A DNA stretch of 58,253 nucleotides from Desulfobacteraceae bacterium (GTDB lineage: Bacteria > Desulfobacterota > Desulfobacteria > Desulfobacterales > Desulfosalsimonadaceae), in the NCBI GenBank assembly GCA_021737545.1, contig JAIPDT010000003.1, positions 1 to 58,253 on the forward strand, written 5' to 3'. Positions 18,696 to 25,307 of this stretch are shown piece by piece. The notes below the pieces were generated by a model. The model was not told the DNA's origin, searched no databases, and saw nothing but the letters and a program-made list of their open reading frames with translations. Within the stretch, counting starts at the first letter, position 1. Each line of letters begins with the position of its first letter. Made by a program: the position numbers and the translations under genes.

Positions 18696-18739
18696 ACCGA
18701 AAGCAAAACAAATATCAATAATTGGATCAGGATCTCATT

Positions 18740-19573
18740 ATGCCAAACAGCGCAATTCTCATATCCGTTATTACCTTTATCTACGGCCTGGCCCTGGTAT
18801 TCTACATCGGCTGCTGGATATTTAAAAAAGAACTGCCCGGCAAGCTGGGCACCTGGACCCTGATTGCCGCGGCTGCCGGAAATGCCGCCGGGTTTGTGCT
18901 TCGTTGGATCGAATCCCACCAAATGGGATACGGATACGTACCCCTGTCAAACATCTACGAATCACTGATTTTCTTTGCCCTTTGCGTGGCCGGCATTTAC
19001 CTGTTTGTTGAGTTCAAGTACAAAGTACGCACCATCGGTGTGTTTGCCTCGCTGTTCTCATTTCTGGCCGTGGCCTATGCGTCGCTTCCCTCGGTGGAAA
19101 GCAACATTGAGCCCTTGATCCCTGCGCTGCAGAGCAACTGGCTTATTGCTCACGTTATAACCTGCTTTATCGGCTATGCCGCATTTGCCATAGCCTGCGG
19201 CATCAGCCTCCTGTACCTGATCAAGTCGGCGGAAAACAATCCGGCTTCAGGCGTTACAGACCGTATCCCGGACCTCGACTCTCTGGATGATTTAACCCAC
19301 CAGATGATTACGTTCGGATTTCTCTTTTTGTCCATTGGCATCATTACCGGTGCTATCTGGGCCAACCAGGCCTGGGGGCGATACTGGGGCTGGGATCCGA
19401 AGGAAACATGGTCGCTGATTACCTGGCTGATTTACGCCACCCTGCTTCATGCCCGGCTCATGAGGGGGTGGACCGGAAAAAGAATAGCAATTCTCTGCTG
19501 CATAGGTTTTGCGGCGGTGCTGTTTACTTATTTCGGAGTGAACTTGTTGCCCGGACTGCACAGCTATCAGTAA
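18740..19573 (+). CDS. ccsA: cytochrome c biogenesis protein CcsA/ResC
   Basis: The haem-handling partner of ResB, with about eight transmembrane helices. The tryptophan-rich WWD-type segment WGWDPKETWSL lies at about residues 216-226, and histidines in the flanking helices (for example in LIAHVIT and LLHARL) are probable haem ligands. I chose the ATG at 18740 because AGGA sits 7 nt upstream; an in-frame TTG at 18722 has no ribosome binding site. Together with resB this is a complete System II, consistent with a deltaproteobacterium. Confidence 0.93.
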   Translation: MPNSAILISVITFIYGLALVFYIGCWIFKKELPGKLGTWTLIAAAAGNAAGFVLRWIESHQMGYGYVPLSNIYESLIFFALCVAGIYLFVEFKYKVRTIGVFASLFSFLAVAYASLPSVESNIEPLIPALQSNWLIAHVITCFIGYAAFAIACGISLLYLIKSAENNPASGVTDRIPDLDSLDDLTHQMITFGFLFLSIGIITGAIWANQAWGRYWGWDPKETWSLITWLIYATLLHARLMRGWTGKRIAILCCIGFAAVLFTYFGVNLLPGLHSYQ

Positions 19574-19733: not shown

Positions 19734-20369
19734 ATGAGCACACAATCGGACAACCAAACGGCCTCTGCCGTAAATCGATCCTCCGGCTGGGTAATATTCG
19801 TTTTTTTCCTGATCGGACTCATCGCAAGTATGATCACCGGCTGGACGGCCTTCCCGAAACTACTTTACTCCACTAAAGAACAACCGATAGATTTCAGCCA
19901 CAAGGTACATATAGAGCAGCTCGGCGACTGCCGGGCCTGCCATTTTTTCAGGGATGACGGCTCTTTTTCAGGCGCACCGAGCCTTGATGAATGCAAAGAT
20001 TGTCACATGTATCCCATGACGGGCAATCCCAACGAGCAGAAATTTATAGAGGAATATATAGAAAAGGACAAAGAAGTCCCGTGGTTAAATTACGCCGAAC
20101 AGCCGCCCTGCGTGTTTTTCTCCCATGCCGCCCACGTAAAGGGATCCGACATGCAGTGCGAAACATGCCACGGCGACATGGGGCATTCCGATTCCCTGCG
20201 CGAGTACCAGGAGAACCGGATTACCGGCTACAGTCGGGATATCTGGGGATACAGCATGCTGCCCATAGGTGAGGCCGAACACGGTCCTAGGCAGAAAATG
20301 AACGATTGTGCGGCATGTCATTTAAAAAAGACCGGAAGCAAGGGCGATTGCTTCCAGTGCCACAAGTAG
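19734..20369 (+). CDS. qrcA: menaquinone reductase, multihaem cytochrome c subunit QrcA
   Basis: QrcA accepts electrons from periplasmic type I cytochrome c3 and feeds the quinone reductase complex. The 211-residue protein has an uncleaved-looking N-terminal helix (about 18-40), so it is membrane-anchored with the haem domain in the periplasm. Canonical CXXCH motifs occur at 66-70, 87-91, 142-146, 192-196 and 206-210, giving five haems; the family is described as hexahaem, and the sixth is not visible as CXXCH. A lone CVFFSH (126-131) in a conserved-looking segment could be a non-standard site. GGAG precedes the ATG. First gene of the qrc operon. Confidence 0.93.
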   Translation: MSTQSDNQTASAVNRSSGWVIFVFFLIGLIASMITGWTAFPKLLYSTKEQPIDFSHKVHIEQLGDCRACHFFRDDGSFSGAPSLDECKDCHMYPMTGNPNEQKFIEEYIEKDKEVPWLNYAEQPPCVFFSHAAHVKGSDMQCETCHGDMGHSDSLREYQENRITGYSRDIWGYSMLPIGEAEHGPRQKMNDCAACHLKKTGSKGDCFQCHK

Positions 20370-20436: not shown

Positions 20437-22719
20437 ATGAAAATCGATCGCAGATGTTTCTTGTCATTTGTCATCGGAGGAGCTCTCGGCACGGCTTTGA
20501 CGCCGGTGCCCTGGAAACTCACGGACGACATCGCAATCTGGACTCAGAACTGGCCCTGGACGCCGGTACCCGAAGAGGGCCCGAGCATATACAAGAAATC
20601 CGTATGCACCATTTGCTCCGGCGGCGGATGCGGAATCAATGTGCGTACAATCAAGGGGCAAGCAAAAAAAATCGAAGGACAGCCGGATTACCCCGTCAAC
20701 CGGGGCAGCATATGCCCCCTGGGCATATCCGCCACCCAGCACCTCTACGGTCCGTCACGTATACAGTCTCCTTTGAAGCGGGCGGGCAAACGCGGCGAAG
20801 GTCGATGGGAAAAGATTTCCTGGGATGAAGCGATTTCCACGGTTTCTGAAAAACTATCCGCACTGCGGAACCAAAAAAAACCGCACACCGTAACCTGCAT
20901 TGCCGGATCCGATCGGGGCACCGTTGCGTACCTGCTTGAACGGTTTTTAACCGCCTACGGGTCTCCCAATTTCATACGGGCGCTTTCTTCTTTTGATGCC
21001 TACGAATTGGCTTTTTCTCTGACCCAGGGACAGCAGGGGACACTCGGCTATGATCTGGCAAATTCAGACTTTATTGTAAGCTTTGGCGCCGAATTAATGG
21101 ACGGCTGGGGAACAGCGGGACAGATGTTTTCCTTATATCCCGGCAACGGCAAAAAAAGCAACCTTGTCCAGGTAGAGCCTCGACTATCAGATACCGCCGC
21201 AATGGCAAACCAATGGATCGCCGCCAAACCTGGAACCGAAAGCGCGCTTGCCCTGGGGATTGCTCATGTAATCGTTAGGGACAATCTGTATAACAAAAAT
21301 TTTATAAACAACCATTGCTTTGGTTTCGAGGACTGGGAAGATAAAAACGGCAAGGCGCACCAGGGGTACCGCAGTTTGCTTAGACAGTATCCCCCGGCAA
21401 AAGTCGCCGAAACCACCGGCATTGACAAAGGCACCATCGAATCCTTGGCTCGCGGTTTTGCCCGCGCCAAAAGACCGGTCGCCATCGGCGGCCGCGGCGG
21501 CCACCTGGCCTCGGGCGGCCTTGATGAAGCCCTGGCCGTTCAAGCCTTAAATGCCTTGGTGGGAAACATTAACCAGCCGGGCGGGGTTGTGGTGGTACCG
21601 GAACCGGATTATCTGAGCTGGTCTGAAATGAAGACCGACAAGACCGCCTCTGAAGGACTCCGGCAGCCGCGAATTGATGAAGCCGGTACGGACAAGTTCC
21701 CCAACACGCGGTTTCTTCTTAACCGGATTCCCGAAGCTATCAACAGGGCAAAGGGCGAATCCCCGATCCAGGCGCTGCTCGTTACCGGAGGCAATCCTCT
21801 TTACACCATGCCCAATACTGAGGCAGCCAAAAAGGCGTTTGACAAGATTCCATTTATCGCCAGTTTTTCCACTTATATGGACGAAACCGCCCAGCATGCA
21901 GATATCCTGCTTCCCAACCACCATTTTCTGGAGCGCTACGAGGATGTGCCCACCCCGGCGGGCACCCCCACAAGAGTGATCGGCTTGACTCGTCCGGTGG
22001 TCAAGCCCCGGTTTGACACCCTTCATATCGGTGATGTAATTATCCGGATAGCCGGTTCCCTTGGCGGTTTCATCGGGCAGGCCTTTCCATGGAAAAACTA
22101 CCAGGAATTTTTAAAACAAACCCTTTCCAAGCAATGGGAAACCCTTGAAAAACAAGGTTACTGGGTGGATTCTGAATTTATTCCGCCCAGATGGGCAAGG
22201 GCGTTTAACACTCCCTCGGGTAAATATGAATTCTACCCGCAGGAACGTAACAACCCATCAGGCAAGGACACGGATGCTCTGCCCGGATTCCGGCCCGCCG
22301 ATTTGCCCGGCAATCCGGATAAAATGCCGCTTACACTTTTACCCTACTCGTCTATACGGATCGCGGGCGGGGCCGTGGCAAACCCACCCTTTATGACCAA
22401 AACCGTGGATGCCGACGTAATCAGGAACAACGACATATTCGTGGAACTAAATCCCGGGACTGCAAAAAAATTAGGGTTTTCCGAAGGCGATGCCGCGATC
22501 TTGAAAACCCCCGCCGGCGAGGCCAGGGTTCGCATTCATCTGTTTGAAGGCCTTATGCCGGGATTGGTGGCCATGCCCACCGGTCTGGGCAGAAACGCAT
22601 TCAGTTCTTACATAGCCGGCAAGGGGGCCAATGTCAATGCCCTGCTCGCAGATATTGCCGAACCCGGATCCGGGCTAAACAAGGCATGGGCAAGCCGCGC
22701 ATCGCTGGTCAAAGCATAA
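20437..22719 (+). CDS. qrcB: menaquinone reductase, molybdopterin-oxidoreductase-like subunit QrcB
   Basis: A large periplasmic subunit (760 residues) of the molybdopterin oxidoreductase fold. In characterised Qrc complexes it lacks molybdenum and serves as an electron-transfer scaffold. The N-terminus has a twin-arginine-like stretch (DRRCFLSF) and hydrophobic segment, suggesting Tat export. Cysteines C57, C60, C65 and C93 form the [4Fe-4S] pattern CX2CX4CX27C. The core has GSDRGTVAYL, GGRGGHLASGG and VTGGNPLYTMP; the C-terminal dinucleotide-like domain starts near 625. The RBS AAGGGG lies close to the ATG. The gene follows qrcA by 67 nt. Confidence 0.93.
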   Translation: MKIDRRCFLSFVIGGALGTALTPVPWKLTDDIAIWTQNWPWTPVPEEGPSIYKKSVCTICSGGGCGINVRTIKGQAKKIEGQPDYPVNRGSICPLGISATQHLYGPSRIQSPLKRAGKRGEGRWEKISWDEAISTVSEKLSALRNQKKPHTVTCIAGSDRGTVAYLLERFLTAYGSPNFIRALSSFDAYELAFSLTQGQQGTLGYDLANSDFIVSFGAELMDGWGTAGQMFSLYPGNGKKSNLVQVEPRLSDTAAMANQWIAAKPGTESALALGIAHVIVRDNLYNKNFINNHCFGFEDWEDKNGKAHQGYRSLLRQYPPAKVAETTGIDKGTIESLARGFARAKRPVAIGGRGGHLASGGLDEALAVQALNALVGNINQPGGVVVVPEPDYLSWSEMKTDKTASEGLRQPRIDEAGTDKFPNTRFLLNRIPEAINRAKGESPIQALLVTGGNPLYTMPNTEAAKKAFDKIPFIASFSTYMDETAQHADILLPNHHFLERYEDVPTPAGTPTRVIGLTRPVVKPRFDTLHIGDVIIRIAGSLGGFIGQAFPWKNYQEFLKQTLSKQWETLEKQGYWVDSEFIPPRWARAFNTPSGKYEFYPQERNNPSGKDTDALPGFRPADLPGNPDKMPLTLLPYSSIRIAGGAVANPPFMTKTVDADVIRNNDIFVELNPGTAKKLGFSEGDAAILKTPAGEARVRIHLFEGLMPGLVAMPTGLGRNAFSSYIAGKGANVNALLADIAEPGSGLNKAWASRASLVKA

Positions 22720-22764
22720 TGCAGCCATCATCCTTGATACGGTAACCATATAAAGAGGTTTTTG

Positions 22765-23586
22765 ATGACAAAACAAGAACAACACACCAGTACAAAACGT
22801 TACGGGATGGTAATTGATCTCGACAGGTGTACCGGATGCGGGGCATGCATGGTGGCCTGCTATGCGGAAAACAACGTTCCGTTCAGCAAGGACGAATCCG
22901 ACAAGATGCTGACCCTGAACTGGATCCGGGTTTTCAAGGTCGACAACGGCAAGCCCTTTCCTGACACGGAAATCTGCTACATCCCCAAGCCATGCATGCA
23001 GTGCGACGGCGAACACATGGACGGACATTCCCCCTGCGTTTCGGTATGCCCTGCAGTGGCAACCGACTATGATCATCTCACAGGCATTGTCAGCCAGATC
23101 TATACCCGATGCTTCGGCTGCCGCTACTGCATGGCTGCATGCCCCTACCACGCCCGCAAATTCAACTGGTGGGATCCTGTCTGGCCCGCTGAGATGGAAA
23201 AATACTTAAATCCGGATGTTTCGGTTCGTATGCGCGGGGTGGTGGAAAAATGCTCCTTTTGTTACCATCGTTACCAGAAGGCAAGAAACAAAGCTTATCT
23301 GGAAGGCAGGGACGAGGTTTATGAGGACGAGTACCAGCCCGCATGCGTAGAGGCCTGCCCGACAAAAGCCATAACCTTCGGAGATCTTCTAAACCCCGAA
23401 CATCAGGTTTATAAGCTGAGCAAAAGCAGGAAAGCTTTCAGACTGCTTGAAAAGTTAAACACCAACCCCAAGGTCTATTACATGACCTCAAAAAAGTGGG
23501 TACGGCGTAAGACCGATAATTACATAGAAAACGAATCACCCGGGGAAACAAGAAACTCCAGTAAAACGCAGAAAGCATCACATTAA
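22765..23586 (+). CDS. qrcC: menaquinone reductase, iron-sulfur subunit QrcC
   Basis: A 273-residue ferredoxin-type subunit that wires QrcB and QrcA to the membrane subunit. Four cysteine groups are visible: CTGCGACMVAC near residue 22, CMQC...CVSVCP near 77-95, CFGCRYCMAACP near 115 and CSFC...CVEACP between about 162 and 200, consistent with four cubane clusters as in the NrfC/PsrB family. GAGG lies 6 nt before the ATG at 22765; an in-frame TTG directly before it is less likely. There is no signal peptide of its own; export with QrcB by Tat hitchhiking is the usual assumption. Confidence 0.93.
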   Translation: MTKQEQHTSTKRYGMVIDLDRCTGCGACMVACYAENNVPFSKDESDKMLTLNWIRVFKVDNGKPFPDTEICYIPKPCMQCDGEHMDGHSPCVSVCPAVATDYDHLTGIVSQIYTRCFGCRYCMAACPYHARKFNWWDPVWPAEMEKYLNPDVSVRMRGVVEKCSFCYHRYQKARNKAYLEGRDEVYEDEYQPACVEACPTKAITFGDLLNPEHQVYKLSKSRKAFRLLEKLNTNPKVYYMTSKKWVRRKTDNYIENESPGETRNSSKTQKASH

Positions 23587-23618: not shown

Positions 23619-24857
23619 ATGACGACACCGGCAATTCCAGAAGGTGTAAAGCGATGCTCCACCGGAAAATTCGCACTTGGTCTGGCTGTGGCCGGCGCCG
23701 TGTTGCTGTGGGGCGTCTATGCCATGTTCCTGGTATGGTACAAGGGGTTAAATCAGACCGGTATGGACAATGCCTATGGATTCGCCCTCTGGATATGGGC
23801 TGACCTGGCCATTATCGCGTTTGGAGGAGGGGCCTTTTTCTCAGGGTTCCTTACCTATATAATTGGCAGAAAGGAGCTTAAAAGCATTATAAACTACGCA
23901 GTGATAATCGGCGTTATTTGTTATAGCTCCGCACTTTTGATTCTGGGCCTGGATGTCGGTCAGCCGCTTCGGGGGTGGTTTATCTTCTGGCACGCAAACG
24001 TACACTCCATGCTAACCGAGGTGGCATTCTGCCTGTCATTGTATTTAGGGGTGCTGGTCATTGAATTTATCCCGGTGGTGCTTGAAAACCCCAAGCTTGA
24101 CCGGTTTCGGTTTATCCATCACTTCAGCCACAATATGCACGAAGTAATGGCTGTATTTGCCGCCACTGGCGTTTTTCTTTCATTTTTCCATCAAGGCTCG
24201 CTCGGCGGGGTCGCCGGAGTACTCTACGGCCGTCCATTCAGCTTCAGAGAGGGACTGCTTATCTGGCCGTGGACCTTTTTTTTGTTTACCTGGTCTGCAG
24301 CCGCAGTGGGTCCCTGTGTTACGGTGCTTATCACCTGGCTTACAGAAAAAATTGCAGGGAAAAAGCTGGTCAAACAGGAAATTTTCCGGATGCTGGGCAA
24401 AATCTCCGGCTGGATGCTGCTTACCTACATGATCGCCAAGATAGCGGATACCTGGTACTGGGCCGCTGTAACAGCCCCTTCAAAGGGTTTTGCCCTTATG
24501 GATTTCTACACCAACAACCCGATATACGGCATCTGGATACTGATAGCCGAACTGGTGGTATGCGGACTGGTGCCCGCACTTATCCTTATTTCCCGCAAGG
24601 GCAGAGAAAACAACTTTCTGCTGGCAGGCGCCATGATACTGGCCGTAATAGGAATCGGTATTAACCGGTGGGTTATGATTTTGCAGGTAATGGCGGCTCC
24701 TTTGCTGCCTTTCCAGGATTGGTACATGTACATGCCGACCTGGCAGGAAATCGCCACCACAATTTTGCCGATCGCCTACGGAACGATCCTGATCATGCTG
24801 GCATACAGGTATTTGCCGATTTTTCCGCAGGAAAAAGAACTCAATCCCGGCAGTTAA
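23619..24857 (+). CDS. qrcD: menaquinone reductase, integral membrane subunit QrcD
   Basis: A 412-residue NrfD/PsrC-family membrane protein with about ten hydrophobic helices, expected to hold the menaquinone site of the complex. Characteristic stretches include GFALWIWADLAIIAFGGG near 50-67 and FIFWHANVHSMLTEVAF near 123-140. An AAGGAG box lies 10 nt upstream of the ATG. The complex as a whole links periplasmic hydrogen or formate oxidation, through cytochrome c3, to the menaquinone pool that supports QmoABC and sulfate respiration. It is followed at once by a small membrane-protein gene. Confidence 0.94.
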   Translation: MTTPAIPEGVKRCSTGKFALGLAVAGAVLLWGVYAMFLVWYKGLNQTGMDNAYGFALWIWADLAIIAFGGGAFFSGFLTYIIGRKELKSIINYAVIIGVICYSSALLILGLDVGQPLRGWFIFWHANVHSMLTEVAFCLSLYLGVLVIEFIPVVLENPKLDRFRFIHHFSHNMHEVMAVFAATGVFLSFFHQGSLGGVAGVLYGRPFSFREGLLIWPWTFFLFTWSAAAVGPCVTVLITWLTEKIAGKKLVKQEIFRMLGKISGWMLLTYMIAKIADTWYWAAVTAPSKGFALMDFYTNNPIYGIWILIAELVVCGLVPALILISRKGRENNFLLAGAMILAVIGIGINRWVMILQVMAAPLLPFQDWYMYMPTWQEIATTILPIAYGTILIMLAYRYLPIFPQEKELNPGS

Positions 24858-24881
24858 TGCCGTATAAAGGAGGGGCCTGAT

Positions 24882-25046
24882 ATGTTTCCTTTTATATTCG
24901 AATGGGAATGGGACATTGCACACCTGGTATTCATGGGAGCCGCGGGTTTCGCTGTGAGCATTATCGGCGCGGGCATTACCTACTGCATCCTCAAAACAAT
25001 CTATGACACTGCAACTGAAGATGGCGGAGAAAAAGGACACCATTAA
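24882..25046 (+). CDS. 54-residue single-helix membrane protein at the end of the qrc operon
   Basis: A short gene lies 24 nt after the qrcD stop with an excellent Shine-Dalgarno (AAAGGAGG, about 8 nt before ATG 24882). The product starts MFPFIFEWEWDIAHLVFMG, continues with a hydrophobic helix (about 15-37, rich in Gly, Ala and Ile) and ends in an acidic and histidine tail (TEDGGEKGHH). It is followed by the terminator at 25109-25148, so it closes the operon. I do not recognise a named family. Its position and size suggest an accessory or assembly subunit of the Qrc complex, as small single-helix proteins do in many respiratory complexes; this is inference. Confidence 0.78.
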   Translation: MFPFIFEWEWDIAHLVFMGAAGFAVSIIGAGITYCILKTIYDTATEDGGEKGHH

Positions 25047-25108
25047 TTCCGTAAAAAACGAGAGGCAGCGTTATTAAAATCTTTAATTGTCTGAAGCATT
25101 CTTATAAG

Positions 25109-25148
25109 CGCCACACTCCCATGCCAGGAAATGAGTGTGGCGTTTTTT
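25109..25148 (+). terminator. rho-independent terminator of the qrc operon
   Basis: CGCCACACTC (25109-25118) and GAGTGTGGCG (25133-25142) form a perfect 10-bp stem with a 14-nt loop, followed by six T. Confidence 0.92.
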
Positions 25149-25207: not shown

Positions 25208-25307
25208 ATAGAAAGAAAGCCCTGCGGTCGGGGTCAGTTTTTTCGCAAAATGCCTCAGCAGAGTAGAAATTTTTTTAAAAACACGCCTATCTTTAAGGTA
25301 AAACAGC

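Follow-up and report, generated by a model that had tools for sequence, protein, structure and literature searches.

qrcE, a small membrane protein gene that accompanies the Qrc menaquinone reductase and probably encodes its fifth subunit

Introduction

In sulfate respiration, the menaquinone reductase Qrc brings in the electrons that come from hydrogen and formate; it also contributes to the proton gradient. Small accessory subunits with a single helix are found in other respiratory complexes, such as CydX of bd oxidase. In the accessible parts of the papers on Qrc, the complex is described with four subunits, QrcABCD, and the protein that we discuss here is not among them (PMC6303296, PMC8076601, PMC13059093, PMC5109826). 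The site at which its membrane subunit QrcD reduces menaquinone is close to the periplasmic side of the membrane, and the protons come from the cytoplasm (PMC6303296, in part). For the Strep-tagged complex purified from N. vulgaris four subunits were reported, and Qrc described with four subunits was active in liposomes (PMC13059093, in the sections available), while the available parts of a proteomic study of D. multivorans record detection of all four (PMC5109826). A protein of about 6 kDa could escape notice in a Qrc purification. Among the papers listed in a literature search that covered titles and the beginnings of abstracts, with most subscription journals outside its coverage, none deals with an additional Qrc protein of this kind, and the searched parts of the transposon-fitness papers on D. 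alaskensis and D. vulgaris contain no mention of it (PMC4215793, PMC10102598).

The closest described likeness comes from the Hmc complex (HmcABCDEF). HmcD (NF045712) is a protein of 51–54 amino acids with one hydrophobic segment and a charged tail, its gene directly follows that of the NrfD-like, QrcD-like protein HmcC, and it occurs in the same kinds of organisms. According to the accessible part of PMC10924467, HmcD is counted as a component of the complex, and HmcB, which is related to QrcC, has a tail anchor.

The qrc operon of the window and its last gene

The window, i.e., the whole stretch of DNA that was analysed, comprises 58,253 nucleotides of contig JAIPDT010000003.1 from a Desulfobacteraceae bacterium. 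The labels qrcE and QrcE are proposed here for a 54-codon ORF of the window and for its protein family. The features of the operon are as follows:

19734-20369, + strand: qrcA, multiheme cytochrome c subunit (NF041781, 243 bits, cut-off 180)
20437-22719, + strand: qrcB (NF041783, 517 bits, cut-off 440)
22762-23586, + strand: qrcC, iron-sulfur subunit (NF041782, 441 bits, cut-off 400)
23619-24857, + strand: qrcD, NrfD-like membrane subunit (NF041784, 667 bits, cut-off 570)
24866-24873, + strand: Shine-Dalgarno AAAGGAGG, read from the sequence, 8 nt 5' of the qrcE ATG
24882-25046, + strand: proposed qrcE, small membrane protein gene with ATG start and TAA stop, 54 amino acids (ORF and translation, conservation, co-occurrence, purifying selection)
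25106-25147 (about), + strand: intrinsic-terminator-like hairpin with U-run, operon end (folding energy against shuffles)

With the scores of all four products above the NCBIfam equivalog cut-offs, the operon is a bona fide qrcABCD. Exactly 24 nt separate the qrcD stop (24857) from the start of qrcE, which is translated into MFPFIFEWEWDIAHLVFMGAAGFAVSIIGAGITYCILKTIYDTATEDGGEKGHH. The hairpin 3' of qrcE has a folding energy of -22.5 kcal/mol (z -4.5), and none of 200 shuffles was equally stable. In the window, qrcE belongs to the operon, placed between qrcD and the terminator-like hairpin. The initial annotation had named a near-perfect ribosome site, a 24-nt gap and a strong terminator, and all three were borne out. 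A simple promoter and terminator scan did not have the hairpin at 25106-25147 among its hits, probably because the loop is long; its sole terminator-like hit, at 25219-25234, lies further downstream and was set aside.

Of the 12 residues published for the quinone site and the proton path, QrcD of the window has kept 10; the mapping relied on a constant offset, which covers these 10 and breaks before the other two (residues from the available parts of PMC13059093 and PMC6303296). QrcC of the window has no hydrophobic segment of sufficient length for a membrane anchor (maximum KD19 1.09), unlike HmcB with its tail anchor. Just 5' of qrcA lies a gene named by eye as CcsA-like, for cytochrome c biogenesis (18722-19573, + strand); ccsAB adjoins a qrc cluster also in D. 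multivorans (PMC5109826, in part).

Coding status of qrcE

Among the 60 nearest genomes, 54 contain a qrcE match at E ≤ 5.7e-6, far more than chance would give; of the other six, two show matches of chance level only and four show nothing. In all 30 loci returned by this search, the window included, qrcE is located downstream of qrcD, and when loci were found via QrcD, it was present within 700 nt in 79 of 80, with L107 as the sole exception. The differences to seven relatives are distributed over the three codon positions as 72/37/148, and within the genus the median pN/pS is 0.20 (28 pairs), while the two shifted frames give 1.5 and 1.9. Conservation of the frame behind qrcD and the substitution pattern were the two tests which the initial annotation had set for itself, and neither refuted its proposal. 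Short length, together with an ORF of 187 codons that overlaps the end of qrcD and qrcE in the other direction (24480-25043, - strand), could be taken to mean that the frame is spurious or conserved by chance beside qrcD. Against this stand the codon pattern, the matches in 54 of 60 genomes and the unlinked homologues described below, many with ribosome sites of their own. Conservation in the nearest genomes, distribution across the phylum and the substitution pattern refute that explanation, which retains practically no probability; that the ORF 24882-25046 is a real gene under purifying selection is practically certain.

Linked and unlinked copies across the phylum

QrcD scores above the cut-off in 77 genomes of the 395-genome phylum sample, and the 700 nt 3' of qrcD were examined in 76 of them, G083 being left out as cut by a contig end. 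A qrcE family member follows qrcD in 39 of the 76. The gap is usually 10–50 nt (maximum 427 nt), and in the linked genomes qrcE usually closes the qrc operon with the same gene order as in the window. Three of the 37 negative cases have a contig edge within 64–168 nt. Linkage is all-or-none per taxonomic family: it is always present in 13 and never in 11. GGAGG sites similar to that of the window precede many of the relatives.

A profile of 32 family members (A1) was searched against the same 395 genomes. It matched in 79 at E ≤ 1.2e-5, all remaining matches having E ≥ 0.0036. With three clear QrcD fragments (G004, G078, G313) the number of QrcD genomes rises to 80, and the qrcE family is present in 79 of these 80 vs. 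0 of the 315 genomes without QrcD (Fisher p 2e-83, a value that ignores shared ancestry). The one QrcD genome without qrcE, G002, is 66% complete and has only 123 nt left 3' of qrcD. By coordinates, 41 of the 79 qrcE genomes carry the gene beside qrcD (the 39 above, G004 and G313) and 38 carry it elsewhere. Of 40 loci of the non-adjacent type that were inspected by eye, 39 hold family members and one (L252, in G002) does not; the 39 include L244, the diverged form of G004, which is placed right after the qrcD fragment and bridges the linked and the unlinked types.

Away from qrcD, the family members are short ORFs, in many cases with a ribosome site, and read MLPWDIPWYDPSHAVFF... or similar. 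Their settings vary by family: in the 20 of 40 loci whose surroundings were viewed, with neighbors named by eye, qrcE is flanked by an rsmA-like gene and YqeY/MutS2/DnaG-like genes, adjoins a TatC-like gene or precedes a phosphomannomutase-like gene. Comparison of the profiles of the linked and unlinked groups gave 99.6%, a likeness that is partly due to selection, since the unlinked profile (A2) was collected from A1 hits and includes one linked-like row. DsrP, a general marker of sulfate reduction, served as control. It is above the cut-off in 235 of the 395 genomes, and those with DsrP but without Qrc have no qrcE; thus qrcE goes with Qrc and not with sulfate reduction at large, and a functional tie of qrcE to Qrc is very likely.

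For the second sample, 119 genomes were taken from f49, the family to which G040 belongs. This is probably the Desulfovibrio family and apparently includes the characterised model organism. QrcD was found at 1e-60 in 94 genomes, 91 of them above the cut-off, and qrcE in 92 at E ≤ 6e-9, the 93rd hit (0.009) being counted as noise. The gene is present in 88 of the 91 genomes with QrcD above the cut-off. When the three weaker QrcD hits are included, 89 genomes have both, 5 QrcD only, 3 qrcE only and 22 neither (Fisher p 3e-16, shared ancestry again ignored), and the pattern of occurrence with QrcD, not otherwise, was found here as in the 395 genomes. The discordant genomes are G481, G508, G539, G546 and G550 (QrcD without qrcE) and G479, G491 and G541 (qrcE without detected QrcD). 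G479 and G541 are incomplete (72% and 91%); for G491 the match is partial (E 6e-9), possibly to a remnant. The weakest QrcD hits, at 357–383 bits and hence below the cut-off, are those of G481 (C14:12157-13305) and G508 (C284:13501-14643), both without qrcE; these proteins possibly belong to another NrfD-type complex. Genera such as g76 and g282 lack both genes, the single g282 hit being the one at 0.009.

In the five f49 genomes with qrcD for which linkage was examined no copy follows qrcD. Copies between rsmA-like and YqeY/MutS2/DnaG-like genes were seen at L218 (3946-4071, reverse strand orientation), L221, L217, L220 and L239. The f49 copies have an N-terminal extension, HGETVxSPLPQDLPW, that is absent from the qrc-linked forms.

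Anatomy of the protein

The family pattern is MxPFxFEWxWDxxHxVFxG..., followed by one transmembrane helix and a His-ended tail. QrcE of the window has one hydrophobic segment (residues 15–33, mean KD 1.96) and an acid/His tail, in agreement with the single helix and tail first noticed in the sequence. M1, P3, E7, W8, F17 and G19 are invariant in 111 unique linked sequences, W10 is found in 99% and K38 and G31 in 93% of them. The last residue is His in 94 of the 111 linked sequences and in 35 of 39 others (codons 25038-25043, + strand, in the window), and the last two are His-His in 63 and 23, respectively; the rest of the tail is variable. The mean number of K+R rises from 0.02 before the hydrophobic segment to 1.9 after it in the 111 linked sequences, and from 0.45 to 2.7 in 11 unlinked examples. 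On the positive-inside rule, this distribution predicts a periplasmic N-terminus and a C-terminus inside.

An AlphaFold2 model was made for L076, a read-through of qrcD into qrcE (77 rows). It has a mean pLDDT of 72 and a pTM of 0.75, and predicts one helix for QrcE residues 10–44, with pLDDT mostly 75–90. The QrcD part resembles ActC of alternative complex III (Z 33) and chains of bd oxidase, in fold searches that covered mostly model residues 45–411, which are QrcD, and hardly included the small helix. The model informs on helix boundaries and on the fold of QrcD, and the docking proposed below does not rest on it.

Comparison with known families

QrcE of the window has no match in Pfam or NCBIfam up to E 1. 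When 32 members were compared with Pfam up to E 10, only ten unrelated weak families appeared, each for one member (best E 0.036). Profile searches of the PDB with A1 and A2 gave matches of chance level (best E 0.23 and 0.31), and phmmer with QrcD retrieved no PDB chain at E ≤ 0.001.

Identity with HmcD was considered and rejected. The genes that come after hmcC in two Hmc clusters have products of 51 and 54 amino acids, which match NF045712 (65 and 75 bits), whereas none of 32 QrcE members up to E 10, and none of 19 up to E 1, matches this family. A relation at the profile level was likewise discarded, the hhalign probability being 0.5% and 1.8%. QrcE thus resembles HmcD in layout, not in sequence, and at most works like it. 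CydX is broadly similar in size and in its one helix, but no CydX family was among the Pfam hits of the 32 members up to E 10. With QrcABCD itself, QrcE shares the operon in the window, and it accompanies QrcD in a nearly one-to-one manner.

Discussion

The reading that we favor, and consider likely, is that QrcE is a single-helix accessory protein and a stoichiometric fifth subunit of the Qrc menaquinone reductase. A missed fifth subunit had been proposed in the initial annotation, and the near-exclusive co-occurrence with QrcD, which holds also when the genes are unlinked, supports this, physical association being what we infer from it. The linkage in 39 of 76 genomes, the co-occurrence in both samples, the bridging form of G004, the likeness of the profiles, the charge asymmetry, the modelled helix and the precedent of HmcD count in favor, while the four-subunit purification, the discordant f49 genomes (5 with QrcD only, 3 with qrcE only) and the blindness of the Fisher p to ancestry count against. 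The helix of QrcE would pack against the QrcD bundle, and its periplasmic motif MxPFxFEWxWDxxH may dock on QrcD/QrcC near the periplasmic menaquinone site, where the site itself is a guess. The acid/His tail would face the cytoplasm, from which QrcD draws its protons; a role of the tail in this uptake is speculation. As QrcC itself lacks an anchor in the membrane, QrcE might clamp QrcC to QrcD, and its main job could be to assemble or stabilise this pair.

One may ask if QrcE has to be present in the finished enzyme. The same genomic evidence fits an assembly or membrane-insertion factor, specific for Qrc, that matures QrcD/QrcC and then is absent from the complex. The activity in liposomes of a complex described with four subunits (PMC13059093, in part) would agree with such a role, and a gene unlinked in many families would suit it. 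However, the place at the operon end after an NrfD-like gene matches that of HmcD, which the accessible part of PMC10924467 counts as a complex component, and the six invariant residues of the 111 sequences fit a fixed interface, yet they would fit a chaperone too. On balance a factor of this kind appears unlikely, though it is the more serious of the two alternatives that accept a real gene. The other holds that QrcE is a membrane protein of the same pathway, handling e.g., cytochrome c3 or menaquinone, and never binds Qrc. Co-occurrence of profiles alone cannot tell binding from a shared pathway, but genomes with DsrP and without Qrc also lack qrcE, which links the gene to Qrc specifically, and adjacency to qrcD recurs in distant families; this possibility is therefore quite improbable.

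To a wider reading we give slightly less than an even chance. All Qrc complexes, including that purified for years from bacteria of the Desulfovibrio type, would be five-subunit enzymes. In these bacteria the fifth gene would be located beside rsmA and a YqeY-like gene, at a great distance from the operon, and for this reason would have been missed by operon-based cloning and on gels. The conserved His-ended tail, on the cytoplasmic side, would help to deliver protons to the channel of QrcD.

Why might the gene have been overlooked? A length below the usual ORF cut-offs, as was first suggested, is part of the explanation, although 54 codons are not below the limit of every gene caller, and the sampled f49 copies are outside the operon altogether. 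A caller favoring long ORFs could also pick the frame 24480-25043 on the - strand and hide qrcE. The original observation was right and is larger than stated, and it extends to clades in which synteny hides the gene.

The mechanism of Qrc is currently dissected with mutants and liposomes on the assumption of four subunits. If QrcE is a fifth subunit, its conserved helix would span the membrane at the electrogenic QrcCD module, and structural models, the design of expression constructs and the way in which proton uptake is interpreted would have to change. QrcE is also a marker for Qrc in metagenomes, and qrcE illustrates how a gene that likely encodes a subunit can lie outside the operon in many lineages and still be tied to its complex.
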